Part shown: in pieces, positions 12,474 to 61,358 of the stretch | How the letters are laid out: every line of letters starts with the position of its first letter | Position numbering within the stretch: position 1 is the first letter of the stretch | Virus record (IMG/VR): IMGVR_UViG_3300026488_000021 | Coordinates: 1-64,000 of that record | From: a virus | Length of the DNA stretch: 64,000 nucleotides | Reading direction: 5' to 3' (one strand) | Translations under genes and position numbers: made by a program | Notes under the pieces: model-generated | The model's input: the letters and a program-made list of their open reading frames with translations, nothing else | What the model was told of the DNA's origin: nothing | The model's database searches: none

Positions 12474-13559
12474 ATGAGAAAAGCATTAATTAAAGCTTTA
12501 GAGGCTATAAAGAAAACTATATATAAACTAATAGATATTATTTTTAAAAAAGTTGAAGATGAGATGCCTGATGACTTATGAGCTAGATGGTATGGACCTA
12601 TGGAAGCAGATCCTAGAGACTTTAAAGTAGAGAATATTTTATGAAAGATAGATAAAAGCAAAATTAAGGATAATGTTGATTTACTTAAAGAAGCTGATAA
12701 TAAACTAGTACCAGTATATCAATGATGTGTTCCAAGTTGTACTGCTAGTGCTTTAACTAATTATATTACTTTACAGGAAGCCATTGAAAGAAATAAAAAA
12801 CTGGATTTTAAAGTAGAGATAGATTGAATTAAAGGTGCTAAAAGATTACGGAGTGAAATGGGACACAAATGGGTTTGTAAATGAGAACACGGTGATTATT
12901 TGGAACACGCATTAAAGTTAGTAAGGCATAATAAATTACTTGCTGAGATAACTTATTACAATCCGTTAAGCATTAAAGACGAATACTTATGAATTACAGG
13001 ATACGCTTATGCTAATGCTACAGCAGATAATATGAAATACTGGTTGAGTATGTGATATCCATTATACTTTGCCTTCAGAGGGAATAAGAATACTCGGACT
13101 GAGATGGCTTTATGAGAGATTAAAACTTACAACTTTACTCCTACTGGTTGACACGCAGTAACAGCTTATTGATATGATGAAGATTACTTGTATTTCATAA
13201 ATAGTTGGGAACCTAATGACTGAACTAAATATGAATGAGAATATGCAGTATTTAAAATAAAGTGGGGCTGATTAATGGAGATGGTTAGAAAATGATTAGC
13301 TAATTGGAGATTCTGGATTGTATACAATGTTGATGATAATTTAGATTCTTACAAAAGAAAAATGTTTGTGGATTATAAGATTAACGGAGAAACTGAACAA
13401 GGACAAGCTGTGAAATACTTTACCGAGAAAAAGATTATTAAGTGAGTTCCTAAGGAAGATTGAAGACGGCTTGAACCAAATAGACCTGTTACTAGACTAG
13501 AATTAATAGTTATTTTATATAGGTTCTTGAAAACTATAATTAATCAGGACAAGAGTTAA
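12474..13559 (+). CDS. Papain-like (C1 family) peptidase with C-terminal SLH-like domain
   Basis: 361 aa. The catalytic triad is visible: YQGCVPSCTAS with nucleophile Cys89, GGHAVTAYGYD with His227, and FINSWE with Asn243. The glycine after the oxyanion Gln and the first glycine of the GGH are TGA. The last 60 residues resemble an S-layer homology domain (AVKYFTEKKIIKGVP, then PNRPVTRLELIVILYRFL), which would anchor the enzyme to the cell envelope. It follows the holin, so it may cleave envelope or S-layer protein during lysis or entry. A C1 protease in this role is unusual; most endolysins are glycosidases or amidases. Confidence 0.85.
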
Positions 13560-31578: not shown

Positions 31579-31752
31579 GTTATATTATTAATTTATAAAA
31601 GCAATATAATAACCAGCTATAAGCTGGCGAAAAGAGATTAGAAGAAGAGAATGTGATTGTTGACACAGGTTTACTTTTGTATTCTTTCTTTAAATAGAAG
31701 GGTTCCTTGGATTAGCTAGTTAGATTAGAATGATAGAAACTTGATAGAAATA

Positions 31753-31826
31753 CGGAGCTGACGGGATTCGAACCCGCGACCTCCTGCGTGACAGGCAGGC
31801 GTTCTAGCCAGCTGAACTACAGCTCC
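31753..31826 (-). tRNA. tRNA-Asp (GUC)
   Basis: Full cloverleaf on the - strand. The acceptor stem is GGAGCTG/CAGCTCC, the D arm GTTC/GAAC and the anticodon stem CCTGC/GCAGG with loop CTGTCAC (anticodon GTC). The T arm is GCGGG-TTCGAAT-CCCGT. It is very close to bacterial tRNA-Asp. The discriminator is G and no CCA is encoded. It lies inside the early gene block rather than at a genome edge, so it looks like a phage-carried tRNA. It cannot itself read UGA. Confidence 0.95.
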
Positions 31827-31830
31827 ATAA

Positions 31831-47498: not shown

Positions 47499-48068
47499 TT
47501 ATTTTGTTAAAAAATTAAACACATAATTGAAGTGTCTCCATCAGTTCGGACAATGATATCTATACATTCCCGAACTAGCTTCTTCAGTACAATATCTACT
47601 CAAAGATGGTCTTCAGTTTAAGCTGTAGAAAAATCTAGCTCAACCTTTCCATCTCCAGGTATACCAGTATTTGGTATACCTTGACAACCAATCGTCTAGA
47701 TTTTCTGATAGGTTTTTGAAACCGTATACTTTAACTCACATACATTGACCTTTCCAACAGTGCTTGAATCCTCAACTTTCAGCCATAGCTATTCAAGCAG
47801 TAACTATAATACAATTTTCTACACTTCAAGTTATTATCCACTTCTTGCATTTATTGATAACGAGTGAAGATTCATAATCACTAAATCAAAGCTGCCTCAT
47901 TCAGTTGTATAATTCAACTGCTCTTTCTCACCAGCAGTATCACCATACAACTTTTTTACATCCAAGCGGTTCGTAGTTGTATGCTTTAGTTTGAACCGCT
48001 CAGATAATGATTAATACAATTCCGCTAGCTACTAGTAGTGTAGCTAGCCAGGTTAGGTTCTTACTCAT
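47499..48068 (-). CDS. Membrane-anchored lysozyme-like protein (189 aa)
   Basis: N-terminal hydrophobic segment (residues 6-26, LATLLVASGIVLIIIGA), then a Cys-rich extracytoplasmic domain. IAMAESGGFKHC fits the catalytic Glu helix of lysozyme/transglycosylase folds, followed by GVKVYGFKNLSENLDDWLSRY, seen in small phage muramidase-like domains. Eight or nine cysteines could form disulfides. An early-block wall enzyme may help wall-related entry, exclusion or lysis. Unusually rich in Trp and Tyr. Confidence 0.7.
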
Positions 48069-50431: not shown

Positions 50432-50800
50432 TTATAAACTAAATTTATAGTTTAAATTATGAAGTTCTTTATCAGCATATTCATCAATTACATTATATAT
50501 ACCATCCTCTATTGCCCATCTCGGAGTTCACCCAGTAAATTTTATATCTACATAAGGAACTGTATACTCCTTATCTTCATCTTCGTTTTCTACTTTTTCT
50601 GCTATATAACTAATAAGTTTATTCAATGTTTTAGTATAATCAATTTTTCAATCTATTGTGTATCCTTTTAGATTTACCTTTTCTTCTTCATTAATCTGTT
50701 CTATGATTTCTTCTAATACATTCTCTCTTGCAATCTGAAATATTCTTTCTAAAACATCCATCCTTAAATCATTAAGATAGATATATACACTTTTTATCAT
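50432..50800 (-). CDS. Hypothetical protein (122 aa)
   Basis: Helical N-terminus, RMDVLERIFQIARENVLEEI, then a charged middle and a beta-rich C-terminal part with YTVPYVDIKFTGGTPRW. Two TGA glycines. No family is recognised. Confidence 0.7.
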
Positions 50801-50832
50801 TACTTTTTTTAATTAAGAAATAAAAACTGGTA

Positions 50833-50961
50833 CTATCTATTTATATAGTACCAAAAGCCGTGCTTCTTGCAATAAGTCAGAAGCCGGCTCCTTCACTCTT
50901 TATCTAAGCCATATTTTAATAGGGCTTTAATAAGCCTCTTAATCCTTCTAAGTTGTTTCAT
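50833..50961 (-). CDS. Very small basic protein (42 aa)
   Basis: MKQLRRIKRLIKALLKYGL then SRLLTYCKKHGFWYYINR. Highly basic and helical. It has the same A-rich leader (AATAAAAAAAATG) as neighbours, which supports translation. Possible nucleic-acid or membrane binder. Confidence 0.5.
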
Positions 50962-51036
50962 TTTTTTTATTTATAAAATATAAAAAACCTGGAATCTCTA
51001 AATTAAAGAAATTAATCTACGTAGAACTTAGCTTCT

Positions 51037-51339
51037 CTAACTTCCCGCTCGTCTGCAAGGCACGCACATACCTGCTTTTCGAGCTGCTAAGTCCTGGGCT
51101 TCTTCATAATTAGAAGCCCGAATTAAATCGTTCAGTTGTAGCACACCTTGGTGATAAGCTACAACATGATATGGACGCAAGATTTCTGCGTCCATAAACT
51201 TTTTAGCAAATTCAACAGCTTCCTCATAGCTGTTGAATTCTTTTTCAAAGTCAGCAACCCTTCCTGATGGGTTGTTATTATCCTCAAAGTAAGGGTCGTA
51301 AGTATAGACCCTTACTTTATATTTTTTAAATTCTTTCAT
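51037..51339 (-). CDS. Hypothetical protein with C-terminal CxxC (100 aa)
   Basis: First gene of the leftward early block, immediately downstream of the large structured RNA's terminator. Beta-rich N-terminus (KVRVYTYDPYFEDNNNPSG), helical middle (SYEEAVEFAKKFMDAE, NYEEAQDLAARKAG) and CVPCRRAGS at the end. It has no TGA, and uses GC-richer codons than neighbours. No family is recognised. Confidence 0.75.
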   Translation of the reverse strand: MKEFKKYKVRVYTYDPYFEDNNNPSGRVADFEKEFNSYEEAVEFAKKFMDAEILRPYHVVAYHQGVLQLNDLIRASNYEEAQDLAARKAGMCVPCRRAGS

Positions 51340-51365
51340 TTTTTTATTTTTAAAGAATAAAATAT

Positions 51366-51389
51366 AAAAACACGATAAGTCGTGCTTTT
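51366..51389 (-). terminator. Terminator of the large structured RNA
   Basis: On the - strand GCACGA-CTTA-TCGTGT followed by TTTTATATTTT. It also works in part on the + strand. Confidence 0.75.
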
Positions 51390-51950
51390 ATATTTGCGGT
51401 CGACTATATTTTTTTCTGGAGCCTCGACCGCAAGGCTCAACAGGAGTCTTTTTTGTTTAACCGGTGTTTCCCCTCACCGGTAAAACCACCCGTGTAAATA
51501 TATTTAATCCAAGAGGCGAGCCAGGCGGTGCTTTGAACTCGCCCCTTGTTGAATTTAGTTTTTATCCTATCTCGAGCTATAACCAGTAGGCAACTACTCC
51601 TACTGGAAACGCTCGACCACTCGCCCCGTCGGTCCGTTGCTCGTCCACACCAACCAAGCGTAAGCTACGCTACACGCCCAGCCGGTGCTTCATCCAAGCT
51701 GTCCCCCGCTTCGGGGCGGTGGATGCGGAGCCGGAGCCCCGCTAATGTTAAATATCTACCCTTTTAACTGATAAGCAAGGGGTAGGACCAGCCGTCCTTG
51801 CTTACCAGCCCAGCCCAGGAATTGAAACCTATAGGCTGGTAGCAGGTTTTAGCCCCTGCTAGGGCTTTATAAGTATTACGGCTTAATACCGTAACACTAT
51901 CAAGGAACTTCGTTTTAGCCCCTCCGTCGGGGTATCCGTTCCCTGATGCT
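51366..51950 (-). ncRNA. Large structured RNA (about 585 nt), family unknown
   Basis: A GC-rich block of nearly 600 nt in AT-rich DNA, with its own promoter and terminator. At least twelve perfect or near-perfect helices fit in order (+ coordinates): 51938-51946/51900-51908; 51929-51932/51919-51922; 51889-51897/51873-51881; 51855-51861/51840-51846; 51834-51841/51803-51810; 51796-51803/51773-51780; 51721-51725/51691-51695 with inner CCCCG/CGGGG; 51666-51671/51657-51662; 51611-51616/51572-51577 enclosing 51599-51606/51583-51590; 51538-51543/51515-51520; 51475-51481/51460-51466; 51424-51431/51396-51403. Open frames on both strands lack this code's TGA use and a plausible protein, so I call it non-coding. 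Size and setting recall the large ornate phage RNAs (GOLLD, ROOL), but I cannot assign it. Confidence 0.82.
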
Positions 51951-51956
51951 GTTAGT

Positions 51957-51984
51957 AGTATAATCATTTTTTTAAAATTTTCAA
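51957..51984 (-). promoter_or_regulatory. Promoter of the large structured RNA
   Basis: On the - strand TTGAAA (51979-51984), a 16-nt spacer and TATACT (51957-51962). Predicted start about 51950, exactly before the first helix. Confidence 0.75.
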
Positions 51985-52003
51985 GACTTTTTTAAAAAAA
52001 TGA

Positions 52004-52256
52004 TTTAGATTGTATAGAAGGAGTTTTAATAAAAGCCTTATTGAAGCTGGTTTTTAGGTGTTATACAATGTAAAAAAAATAAAAATTAAATTATAGGTAT
52101 GTAAAAAAAATAATGAAATATGTTTCATAATGCGTAAAATTTTGAAATTATAAATTTTTATAGGTATAAAAAAAAAAAATAAAATTTTACATTGTATAGT
52201 GGTTTAAACCCTAGTATATATGGGGTTTCTCAAAGATGGGGTCTATACAATCTAAA
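52004..52256. repeat. Nested inverted repeats in the early/late control region
   Basis: Outer pair: a 14-mer beginning TTTAGATTGTATAG at 52004-52017 and its exact reverse complement at 52243-52256. Inner pair: ATACAATGTAAAA at 52063-52075 and its exact reverse complement at 52185-52197. All four arms share the core ATTGTAT(A). They could be operator sites for a dimeric regulator or a replication-initiator, or form a large cruciform. Confidence 0.75.
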
Positions 52257-52456: not shown

Positions 52457-52524
52457 TGTAAAGTAGACCGGGGGGGTGCGGGGGGGGTGGCGCGCACCGC
52501 ACAGGACGCGTGTAAAGCAGACCG
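52457..52524. repeat. G-runs and near-identical TGTAAAG-AGACCG repeats
   Basis: Runs of seven and eight G at 52470-52476 and 52480-52487, inside a GC-rich hairpin (GGTGCG with CGCACC at 52493-52498). The hairpin is flanked by TGTAAAGTAGACCG (52457-52470) and TGTAAAGCAGACCG (52511-52524). In this AT-rich DNA that is highly unusual. Confidence 0.7.
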
Positions 52525-52540
52525 CAGGTTAAACCTAGAA

Positions 52541-52878
52541 TGTAGGGCTAAGGTCTGAAAAGTATAGGAAGAAACTTTGTGAAATTGAAAATCTCGCAAG
52601 TTTGATGTGCTGTAAGGTGTATCTATCGTCAGCAACCAAAAAACTTTAAAATTTGAAAAAATCGTAATGAAAGTATGCGGGGTTTCGGCGTCAATTTTAC
52701 CCTAAAATTTTGTAGGGCTAGCTTGTCTACCCCAAGCCTTACCCAACCGTTGTGTCGCTGCGCCGCTTCTTTGTTGTCTTCATTGTTTTCTTTCCGCTTG
52801 TTTGTCCGCTAATAATACAGCTTTCCTCTTCTTTCTTCGGGGGCGCCCCTCCCCAAGGTACTTCTTTTTTGTAGGGCT
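52541..52878. repeat. Three copies of TGTAGGGCT
   Basis: TGTAGGGCTA at 52541-52550 and 52711-52720 and TGTAGGGCTT at 52870-52879, spaced about 160-170 nt. No gene is seen in this part; short GC-rich patches such as GGGGCGCCCC near 52836-52845 add further structure. Confidence 0.55.
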
Positions 52879-52902
52879 TATCCAATTCCCTCCTAAAAAC
52901 CT

Positions 52903-52948
52903 TCCGATTAAACAACCTTCCCTCCCAAACCTCCGATTAAACAACCTT
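52903..52948 (+). repeat. 17-bp direct repeat
   Basis: TCCGATTAAACAACCTT at 52903-52919 and 52932-52948, 29 bp apart, in a Pyrimidine-rich tract. Possible initiator or regulator binding sites. Confidence 0.7.
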
Positions 52949-52949
52949 A

Positions 52950-53180
52950 AACCTACTAATTAAGGATTTAAACCTCTAACTTAAAACCTAAACTTACACT
53001 TACTAATTTAAATAAACTTACTAACATTACTAACTTAATCATTTTAGTATATAAACAATTTTAACTAAATACTAACAAACTCAATTTAATAAAATAAGTA
53101 AAAATACTAAGAATATTATTTTAATCAGAATATTCTTTTACTAAGAATAGTAAAACTCAAATTATACTAAAAAGCTAAGA
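52950..53180. other. TACTAA-rich AT tract, candidate unwinding element
   Basis: About eight copies of TACTAA or ACTAA within 230 bp of nearly pure AT, plus a 9-bp inverted repeat AAGAATATT (53109-53117) / AATATTCTT (53129-53137). No coding potential. It lies just upstream of the late promoter. Confidence 0.55.
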
Positions 53181-53797: not shown

Positions 53798-56700
53798 ATG
53801 TTAGCATTAAAACTACACGATTTAAAAAACTGAGTAATTTACCATCCACATCCTTTAAAGAACCCGTTAGCTTGGGACAAGGAGGATTTTGTATTTTATG
53901 ATAAGAGAGTTGATAAATTACTAAAATGGAAGTTAAGATATCTTTATAATAATTGAAATCCTAAGATTGTAAAGAAAGAAATAGAAATATTAAATACTAC
54001 GTATACATTGGAAGAGTTAGAAGTTCCTAAAAACATTCCTGAAGATATAAAAGTTATTTTACAAGAGTTTGAAGACACAAAAAAAGAGTATATAGCAGAT
54101 GCTGTTAAAAAAAAACTATATGGAGATTTAGAATATACAATAGCGGTTGAACTTCTTATTAGTGAGAAAAAATGAATTAAATTAGAAAATGTTGATAAAA
54201 ATAATTTGGAATATTTGTTTTCGCTACCGTTTAAAACTTTTTATAAGCAAGCTAAAAGATTGATTGATAGATGAGAAATTACTAATACAGATTTAGATAA
54301 TATTGTTATTAAAAAAACATCTAAATATTATTATAATCCTAAACTACCAGTCCCTTATATACCACTATTAGCAAGAGAACATGTTTACACACCAGATTGA
54401 AATCCTTGGAATCCGAAACTTGGTCAGATATATTATTTGTATCATGAAGTTGAAAATACGGTTAACTTATTATTATCAAAAAGACAATATGGTAAAGGAG
54501 GGTATGTATCATTAAAATGATTTCAATATAGAATGGCTGATTGAACATTTAAAAAGGCTAAGGATATAAAAGTCTGAGATAAGTTATTAGCTTCTGATAA
54601 AAGGTGATATACTAACGTAGTTGGCATATCTCTCACAAAAGAACCTGTTTATAAAATTACTCTTTCTAACTGAGCTTATTATTATGCTACTACAGAACAT
54701 CAACATGTAACTGCTGAGAATTATAAAAATTGAAAGTTTGTTTGACCTTATAAAAATACAGTTGAACTTCAAAAATGAGACTTTATACCTTATATGCATA
54801 ATATAGAGATTAAGTGAAAACATGAGAATATTTATAAAATGAAATTATTGTGATATTGGTTGTGAGATTGAACAGTTGCTAGTGATAGTTATGTAAACAC
54901 AATGTCTTTAGAAATTAGTTGCTGAACTAATCAAGCTTATATAGATAAGCTTATTCAATATGCTAAATATTTGTGATTAAAAGCAAGAGTGGAGTTAGAT
55001 ACTAGAAAACAAAATCATTGTGTACATATATACTGATTTGATAATATGAAAGATATTTATAAAAATAAAAGTTGAACTAAATATATTCCTAATTTTGTGT
55101 TTGGATTAGATAAAGAATGAAAGCGAGCTGTGATAGAATGATTATTATGAAGTGATTGATATATACAGATAAAACACAACTGAGTTGTTACAATAGAGTA
55201 CTGTAGTAAATCTGAAGAACTTATTAGAGGATTGCAAATATTGTTAGCAGATGTTTGAGTGTTGTCAAATATTAAAAGCAGATTTATGAAAACGAATTTT
55301 AATAAACATAAATGATGAGATACCTATTGGTATTTGTATATTACAGATAGACAAAGTGTTTTAGATATATTTGAACACACAAATCTTGATCACAAGCTTA
55401 ATTATGAAGATGCTTATAATATTATTACAACAAACACTAAATTATCCAATTCTAAACATTCTATAATTCCTATGATTGCAAAAGAAGAACAGAAACAAGT
55501 AATATCGTGGGAAGAAAAAGTTAGATTAGGAATTAGAAATATTCAGTATAATTTCCAAAGACGGAAAGCTCCTTACTACTGATTAGAACACTGGTTAAAA
55601 TATCATTGGGTTAGAGTAGAAAGTATTGAAAAGATAGGAGAGGAAGAAGTTATACATATACAAGTGGATTGAGATAATTTGTTATGGACAGGATGAGTTT
55701 TAACACATAATTCACTTCTTACTACCTTAATTGCATTTCAGCATTTAATGATGGATTGAGAGAATTCTATACTATATTTGGTTGAGGCTGAAAATAAAAT
55801 ACTTCCAATCATGCAATATTTTGAAAGAGGTTTAAAGAAATATAAGCAGGCTTGAATTTTTTCTATGTCAAAAAATGATTATACTATAACTTGTAAAATA
55901 ACTGGTAATGTATTAAAGTTTATGTCAGCATGAAGTAGGACTGGTGTTAAAGGATATTCTTTTAAAAAGGTAATAATTGATGAAGCTGATTACATAAGTG
56001 ACGATGTATTCTTTTCTTTAATTCCAATATTTAATAAACCTGGTGGTAAATTTTATGCGGTATCAACAGTAGCGTTTGATGTTAAATGAGGTTCAACTTG
56101 GTTTTATGATTTGGCTAAAGATATAGAACTAGGATTAAATAAAATGATTTGAGACATTCCATCACAAGCACTAACAATCACTCTGTATGAAGATGAGTGA
56201 GTTACAAAGCAACAATTACAGATGTTTGAGATAATCCGTAAAAGAGATCCAGATCGTTTTTTGTGAGATTACATGTGTATTAGGTGAGATCAAGATACAT
56301 TGTGGGATAAAAATAAATTGATTAGCCCTATTAGTTCAGATGAATATAAAAAGAAGAATGTAATAAATGTCTTAATTTCTCTGGATCCAGCTAAAAAATA
56401 TGACTATGGTGGATTGGTTGTTAGTTATATTATTGAAGAAGACTGAAAAAATTATATAGTTCCAGTAGTAGCTGATGAGTTAGAAAAGATGGAATATTAT
56501 CAACAAATAGAGATTGTTAAAAAATATGTAGATTTGGCTTTAATAAATCAATTCCCAGTTAATGTTATTATAGACGAAACTGGTGTTTGAGCTGCTGTAT
56601 CAGAAATGTTAAAGCAACAAATACCAAATGCACACTTAATTAAATTGATGTATACCGCAGGGAATAATATTACAGAAAAAAATGGAGCTATTTATGTTCC

Positions 56701-57004
56701 TAAGAAAGAATTAGTTGATACATTATCAACACTTGCATCAGAATGAGAGGTTAAAATTCCGTATGATTTAAAGAATTTGATAGAACAGCTTGATACTTAT
56801 AGGTATGTAAATGGGAAATACGAAGCTATTACTTGACATGATGATGTGATAGAAAGTTTTTTGAATACAACATTTATTTATAATTATAAACTAAAAAAAC
56901 ACTTGAAATTATTTTGAACATCTGTAAACTGACAAACAGATGATATCATAACAATACCTCCGCCTAGTCAAACTAGACAAAGATTAAGAAAGTTTCTTTA
57001 TTAA
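53798..57004 (+). CDS. terL: Terminase large subunit interrupted by an intein in its P-loop, right module
   Basis: 1068 aa before splicing, about 663 after. The N-terminal extein ends in SKRQYGK (Gly232-Lys233). After roughly 405 residues of intein the chain resumes with Ser639-LLTTLIAFQ, so the joined sequence reads RQYGKSLLTTL, a canonical terminase Walker A. Walker B is VIIDEADYI (Asp728-Glu729). The nuclease part has SLDPAKKYDYGG, NVIIDETGVG and HDDVIES. Start ATG 53798. The 235-residue N-terminal extension before the P-loop is longer than usual. It shows no close likeness to the terminase at 3350. Confidence 0.92.
54497..55711 (+). other. LAGLIDADG intein within the large terminase
   Basis: Hint splicing blocks: ADGTFKKAKDIKVGDKLL (block A end), TTEHQHV (block B, Thr-x-x-His), and at the end DGDNLLWTGGVLTHN followed by Ser+1. 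The homing endonuclease has two LAGLIDADG helices, LLGYWLGDGTV and VIEGLLGSDGYI, with TGA in the invariant glycines. If the insertion is GK|S, the intein starts with Gly-Gly rather than Cys or Ser; the alternative is Ser at 54509, which would leave GKGGYV in the P-loop. About 401-405 aa. The insertion in the Walker A is a typical conserved-site choice for inteins. Confidence 0.88.
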
Positions 57005-60029: not shown

Positions 60030-61358
60030 ATGGCTAACTTATTGACAAAACTACAAGATAAACAAGGTATTGGTTTGTATTCACAATTGATTGCAAAACA
60101 AAGAAGTCCGTTTATGTCTGATATACTATTTGGACAAGATATTAACGATCCGTCTTCTACATTGTCTTTTAAAGGGATTTTATTACAAAAGACAACAACA
60201 AAAGACGGTAAATCAGTAGAATGGAGATTGATTTCAGCTAATGAGGATTATTCTACTCTTGCTGCAAATGCTGCTGCTGGTGCTACATCTATTGATGTAG
60301 TTGATGCTACTCCATTCTCAATTGGTGATGATATTGAAGTTGGAACAGGTACTGCAAATGCAGAAAGAAAATATGTTACTGCTATTACTGGTAATACATT
60401 AACATTGGATTCTGCATTAGCTAATGATCATTCTGCTGGTGATCAAGTATTGTCTATAACACACGCAAAAGGTGTTGGTGAAGTAGCAGATAAAGGACAA
60501 GGTGTATGGACAGATGATACAGAATCAAACTTCTTCCAAACATTTGATGCTGTACTGGAAGTAACAAAGGATGAATTAAATGCTCATATTATGGCTGGTT
60601 CTGGTGCTTTTAATATTTCTATGAAACAAGCACTAAGTCAAAAACAAATTGATGCTGGTATTGATAATTATTTAAAATTGGAATTTATTAGAGTATTTGG
60701 TTATGATATTCTTAGAAGTGTAGAAAATGCATTCTGGAGTGGTAGAAAAGCTGAAATAAATGTTGGTGGTAAATTAAGAAGATTTACTGGTGGTTTTGAA
60801 GAATATAAAACAACTGATGAAACAATTGATGCTTCTACTTTGACAGATAAGGAATTGTTTGATAAAATTGTTTCTCACATTTATGATGTAGAAAACTTAG
60901 CATCATCAATTAATGCTAACGAAGTTGTAGTTGTATGCAATAATGCGTTCTTCAAAAAATTCTTGACATTACAACCATCTGGTATTGCATTACCTGAAAA
61001 ACCAACAAAAGATGGTTATAGATTAACAGAAATTATGTTAGGAAACAAAACATATCAAGTATATTACTCTCCTGCTTTGGATAAATTAACAGCTAATAAT
61101 CCAACAGTTGGTAGATTGTATGTATTCCCAAAAGATACAATTGCTGCTAAAACAAGAGAATATACAGATGTAGATGCTAAACAATTGAAGGCTGTTAAGG
61201 GTGGTCCAGATATTAAAGTTACATATGATCCAACTGCTCAAGCTGCTGGTGATGTATGGAGATTCTACTTTATGTATGAAGTTGCATTCATCTTTGGTGC
61301 ATATACACCAAATAAGGCATTGGATGTTTATAGAAAAATTACAGTTACAAATATCTAA
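60030..61358 (+). CDS. Major capsid protein, right module (442 aa)
   Basis: Coat protein with HK97-type features: an N-terminal MANLLTKLQDKQG segment, an inserted Ig-like domain (SIDVVDATPFSIGDDIEVG and AITGNTLTLDSAL), then QKQIDAGIDNYLKLEFIR and a long core with VVVVCNNAFFKKF and GNKTYQVYYSPAL. Of 32 glycines none uses TGA, while the next gene downstream uses TGA for about nine of twelve. That is the strongest codon bias in the window. It differs in sequence from the capsid at 7930. Confidence 0.9.
   Translation: MANLLTKLQDKQGIGLYSQLIAKQRSPFMSDILFGQDINDPSSTLSFKGILLQKTTTKDGKSVEWRLISANEDYSTLAANAAAGATSIDVVDATPFSIGDDIEVGTGTANAERKYVTAITGNTLTLDSALANDHSAGDQVLSITHAKGVGEVADKGQGVWTDDTESNFFQTFDAVLEVTKDELNAHIMAGSGAFNISMKQALSQKQIDAGIDNYLKLEFIRVFGYDILRSVENAFWSGRKAEINVGGKLRRFTGGFEEYKTTDETIDASTLTDKELFDKIVSHIYDVENLASSINANEVVVVCNNAFFKKFLTLQPSGIALPEKPTKDGYRLTEIMLGNKTYQVYYSPALDKLTANNPTVGRLYVFPKDTIAAKTREYTDVDAKQLKAVKGGPDIKVTYDPTAQAAGDVWRFYFMYEVAFIFGAYTPNKALDVYRKITVTNI

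Follow-up and report, generated by a model that had tools for sequence, protein, structure and literature searches.

What kind of element is the GC-rich tract of about 600 nt that lies between the two divergent gene blocks of an AT-rich phage genome, and does it act as an RNA, as DNA or as a coding sequence? The DNA analysed here (the window) covers the first 64 kb of a virus record with a total length of 82,022 bases. The initial annotation had read the tract as a large, ornate − strand RNA at the head of the early operon, and its composition is as distinctive as was claimed, with 50% GC across 51360–51951 versus 27.8% for the genome. A large structured − strand RNA that heads the early block is supported by its folding energy, by the difference between the two strands and by the fact that no reading frame spans it. 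The explanation that we prefer, at about even confidence, is a discrete structured noncoding RNA of ~590 nt that would represent an undescribed family.

Genetic code and genome layout

Open stretches of at least 200 codons number only 4 under the standard code, as against 32 when TGA is read as a residue. If TGA is translated as tryptophan, this residue falls at places where glycine is expected; table 25 turns the terminase motifs TGVW and TWHDD into TGVG and TGHDD, and the glycine of TGHDD aligns with one in the terminase from another code-25 contig. These terminase sites argue that TGA most likely encodes glycine in this phage (NCBI table 25), and the code in turn suggests that the host probably belongs to the Gracilibacteria/Absconditabacteria, lineages for which phages that use TGA as glycine have been described (PMC10746230). 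Given this reassignment, table 25 is needed for annotating 1–64000, since table 11 makes nearly all genes appear broken, and the gene map around the candidate RNA consequently differs from the one read earlier.

The − strand block includes genes for a helicase, a PD-(D/E)XK nuclease and an MT-A70 methylase at 40.2–42.8 kb, and the + strand block contains the portal and terminase genes from 53.8 kb onward. The candidate RNA sits between these divergent blocks and heads the − strand replication (early) block. Within the + strand block, the large terminase gene (53798–57004) is split by an intein that contains a LAGLIDADG endonuclease domain and apparently sits close to the ATP-binding motif. A 442-codon gene at 60030–61358 contains no TGA codons, compared to 46 in the terminase gene; it has no family match and possibly encodes the major capsid protein.

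Fold of the tract and its strand

On the − strand, 51360–51951 has a minimum free energy (MFE) of −261.8 kcal/mol, whereas dinucleotide shuffles average −188.6 ± 6.9 (z = −10.6). All 200 shuffles were less stable, and repetition with 300 shuffles gave z = −10.7; the stems are thus beyond chance, as had been proposed. Windows of this region also rank at the top of a structure scan across the entire 82 kb. The MFE fold comprises 25 predicted helices, most with a mean pair probability above 0.8, which exceeds the minimum of twelve counted by the initial annotation, and their lengths include 19, 14, 14, 11, 11 and 10 bp. The predicted layout is a series of hairpins that leads into a branched GC-rich core (Table 1). 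This core (51742–51572) is nested with pair probabilities near 1, and contains the 19-bp helix (51688–51669/51665–51647) as well as the previously noted arm in which CCAGTAGG/CCTACTGG (51606–51599/51590–51583) lies inside TCGAGC/GCTCGA (51616–51609/51580–51572). The closing helices are weak (2 bp, P = 0.57; 8 bp, P = 0.57; 5 bp, P = 0.58), so that the overall topology is uncertain while the local arms are firm. An internal repeat of at least 12 nt, such as the one found here, occurred in 4 of 300 shuffles, and is hence unusual. Enrichment of unpaired A was not significant relative to shuffles (z = 1.4), and A-rich loops were accordingly dropped as added support for a functional fold.

Table 1. 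Positions of the candidate RNA, its predicted parts and the neighboring elements (P, pair probability)
Feature	Position	Strand	Basis
Candidate structured noncoding RNA, ~590 nt	51360–51951	−	MFE and strand-difference z; no spanning frame; no Rfam match
Four exact TATACAATNTAAA sites, two inverted pairs, equal 58-bp spacing	52004–52256		
16-bp inverted repeat AATCATTTTTTTAAAA/TTTTAAAAAAATGATT around the −35 hexamer	51962–52005		
Promoter-like TTGAAA-N16-TATACT	51957–51984	−	10/12 matches to consensus
67-aa open frame	51764–51967	−	ATG; A-rich leader resembling other early genes
Helix 1, 10 bp, enclosing a CCCC-GACGGA-GGGG hairpin	51899–51947	−	P = 0.96
Exact repeat GGGGCTAAAAC at each end (12-nt AGGGGCUAAAAC repeat)	51846–51922	−	
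Helix 2, 11-bp hairpin	51872–51898	−	P = 0.98
Three-hairpin domain	51758–51865	−	Inner helices P = 0.96–0.97; weaker closing helix P = 0.58
Long nested arm of GC-rich core: 11, 3, 5 bp and 19-bp tip helix	51617–51722	−	P = 0.94–1.00
TCGAGC...GCTCGA / CCAGTAGG...CCTACTGG arm	51572–51616	−	P = 0.85 and 1.00
14-bp hairpin CAAGGGGCGAGUUCA/UGGCUCGCCUCUUG	51510–51548	−	P = 0.91
Penultimate hairpin TTGCGGTCGA/TCGACCGCAA	51394–51433	−	P = 0.83
Terminator-like hairpin with U tract	51360–51395	−	Sequence match
Next gene, 100 aa; coding RNA a chain of near-perfect hairpins	51037–51339	−	

Such hairpins might in principle act as DNA, namely as a segment of an origin or control region that is extruded or recognised in the form of folded single strands. 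Many of the stems are perfect on both strands, and the tract lies next to the two inverted pairs of TATACAATNTAAA sites and to a change in the sign of the GC skew near 52 kb, both of which would fit such a role. However, while the + strand is itself more stable than its shuffles (z = −6.0), the minus-plus energy difference is −56.2 kcal/mol versus −20.8 ± 6.6 in shuffles (z = −5.3), and we regard the DNA interpretation as improbable. The − strand is stabler than the + strand beyond expectation, as G-U pairs in an RNA would lead one to expect, and the structure therefore most likely belongs to an RNA read leftward and not to palindromic DNA alone. As G-U pairs show no excess over shuffles, this strand argument is based on the energy difference alone.

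Boundaries, coding potential and the downstream hairpin chain

Promoter-like and terminator-like sites flank the candidate RNA, both as consensus matches alone. The near-consensus promoter reported earlier is present at its position, but it is weak evidence by itself: it is merely suggestive because the 82-kb record of this AT-rich genome contains 89 sites with at least 10 of 12 matches. The terminator seen previously likewise corresponds to a terminator-like hairpin in our analysis. The inverted repeat around the −35 hexamer is possibly an operator; if transcription begins further upstream, it could instead form a hairpin at the 5' end of the RNA. Beyond it, the TATACAATNTAAA sites, which have no other exact copies within the window, may be operators or another part of a control region, or else origin elements; with these sites just upstream, the transcript may start further upstream. 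A second GC-rich noncoding stretch at 52470–52960 contains runs of G as well as a direct repeat of 22 nt (52898, 52927), and is absent from the unusually structured windows of the 82-kb scan.

No reading frame spans 51360–51951 under code 25. The region could nevertheless encode one or more small proteins, with the fold as a by-product or an overlay. The best case for this is the 67-aa frame, whose 67 codons lack a stop and are preceded by the kind of leader seen at early genes. Against it, this frame covers one third of the region, has a flat GC content by codon position (0.46/0.49/0.49), scores −52 bits in synonymous codon usage against the genes of the phage, has no match in a family search, and yields no predicted fold (AlphaFold2 pTM 0.20). 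On account of its flat GC, atypical codon usage and lack of family or predicted fold, it is probably spurious, and a coding function is the least likely of the explanations considered, being very improbable.

The initial annotation ended the structured tract at 51366, and on this point the evidence goes against it: dense structure runs on through the first downstream gene to ~50.8 kb. Perfect strong hairpins of at least 8 bp number 10 in 50800–51990, where local shuffles contain 0.1 on average. The mRNA of the gene at 51037–51339 is more stably folded than its synonymous shuffles (z = −7.7), and the gene has a leader similar to those of other early genes. A single-sequence AlphaFold2 model of its 100-aa protein has pTM 0.47 (moderate confidence), and a structure search with this protein gave no significant match. 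The coding RNA of another early gene, 47499–48068, is also unusually structured (synonymous-shuffle z = −4.9).

A comparable element was encountered in a distantly related phage contig (G349:C199) from another code-25 genome, with a terminase 26% identical. Here an open frame consisting of a hairpin chain (L019:12957–13256) heads the early block, with a synonymous-shuffle z of −11.6. This frame and 51037–51339 are the two strongest among 139 frames in the synonymous-shuffle test, and are comparable in kind and position. Both stand at the head of a block divergent from the terminase genes, in phages of the same kind of host, with an extreme fold signal. In contrast, the frame of the distant phage has no covariance-model similarity to the candidate RNA, and its hairpins lie within an open frame, so that they resemble the 51037–51339 gene and not the GC-rich core. 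A protein search of 353 genomes recovered no further copies of either hairpin-array protein, and a third code-25 phage contig (G020:C33) has no hairpin cluster like those seen in the other two. The distant phage also contains a GTAGGAAATTATTTGTGATA-like motif that recurs (at 12912, 14346 and 14949) ~45 bases ahead of early genes; it is perhaps an early promoter element and has no exact match in IMG/VR.

These observations bear on the main alternative, that the tract forms the structured 5' region of a polycistronic early mRNA instead of a separate RNA. Its hairpins, over 1.2 kb of untranslated and coding sequence from ~52.0 to 50.8 kb, would then act in cis by shielding the first early message against nucleases, by setting up processing, or by delaying translation or termination. 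The continuation of the chain into a coding gene, with the top structured windows reaching 50.8 kb, favors this alternative and counts against a discrete RNA. The hairpin-array frame with which the early block of the distant code-25 phage begins points the same way, as does the 16-bp inverted repeat, which may mark the start of a longer transcript. On the other hand, 51400–51760 differs from the coding part, with its local hairpins, in being untranslated, branched and rich in GC, and a terminator-like hairpin stands between the candidate RNA and the gene at 51037–51339. As the branched core and the terminator-like hairpin favor a discrete RNA, we consider the structured-mRNA explanation a serious but less probable one.

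Proposed role and relationship to known phage RNAs

The discrete RNA would be transcribed leftward from ~51950 and end at the terminator-like hairpin near 51360, directly before the early (replication) operon, into which some polymerase would read through. The product is proposed to act as an RNA, in trans, early in infection. A broader proposal combines both forms of structure: the candidate would be the first described large ornate RNA family from phages of TGA-glycine bacteria, within a wider habit in which early transcripts open with ~0.3–1.2 kb of dense hairpins over noncoding and coding sequence, for protection or counter-defence. We view this combined proposal as rather unlikely in its entirety. 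Together with its counterpart in a distant phage whose host is of the same class, the hairpin-array gene at 51037–51339 suggests that code-25 phages may repeatedly experience selection for RNA structure where early transcription begins.

The candidate RNA has no credible match among the known families. At the gathering score, Rfam 15 gave no match in the window except for one tRNA distant from the region, and a scan of the whole library at E <= 10 gave no credible match in the region itself, where the best score belonged to a Tetrahymena snoRNA (31 bits, far under its 100-bit cut-off). An identity as ribosomal RNA, RNase P, tmRNA, intron or riboswitch was rejected on these grounds. Searches for homologues, in collections from which near-identical records may be missing, likewise recovered none that was usable, whether by blastn against annotated phages, by protein-anchored IMG/VR scans (terminase, capsid-like, helicase and portal) or by an IMG/VR scan with a three-phage terminase alignment. 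A DNA search of 353 code-25-class genomes returned short AT-rich matches only. Single-sequence covariance models detected no homologue, either in the same 353 genomes (R1) or in 12 sources (R1/R2), and a pattern search with the internal repeat pair gave three matches, all unrelated.

The very large structured RNAs known from phages fall into only a few classes, and two of these, ROOL and GOLLD, have functions that are poorly understood (PMC12286853). The initial annotation had been cautious about placing the candidate in either, and rightly so. The ROOL model (RF03087) had no match in the record at E <= 10, and 14 control genomes gave none either; the GOLLD model (RF02032) had no match at the same threshold, with weak hits in control genomes, none of them above the cut-off. 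Neither family appeared in the whole-library scan. If it is a discrete RNA, the candidate would be an independent case of a large RNA, unrelated to ROOL and GOLLD, from an almost unstudied host group. Beyond the initial annotation, the analysis adds the TGA-glycine code, the hairpin chain that runs into 51037–51339, and the comparable array gene in a distant phage.

The candidate resembles ROOL in size (the model has 574 positions) and in being phage-encoded and highly structured (PMC12286853). However, ROOL RNAs often occur near tRNA islands (PMC12286853), whereas the only tRNA in the 64 kb (31752–31827) lies ~19.5 kb from the candidate. GOLLD RNAs are similarly phage-encoded, large and highly structured, but many of them exceed 800 nt, compared to the ~590 nt of the candidate, and in phages and prophages they are often found near tRNA islands (PMC12286853), of which there is none here. 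The candidate would parallel both in its size, its setting and the extent of its structure, without being a member of either. ROOL and GOLLD form RNA-only cages (PMC12286853), a homo-oligomeric nanocage in the case of ROOL, and by analogy with what is thought of these RNAs, the candidate would most likely serve in trans as a scaffold or a sequestering particle.
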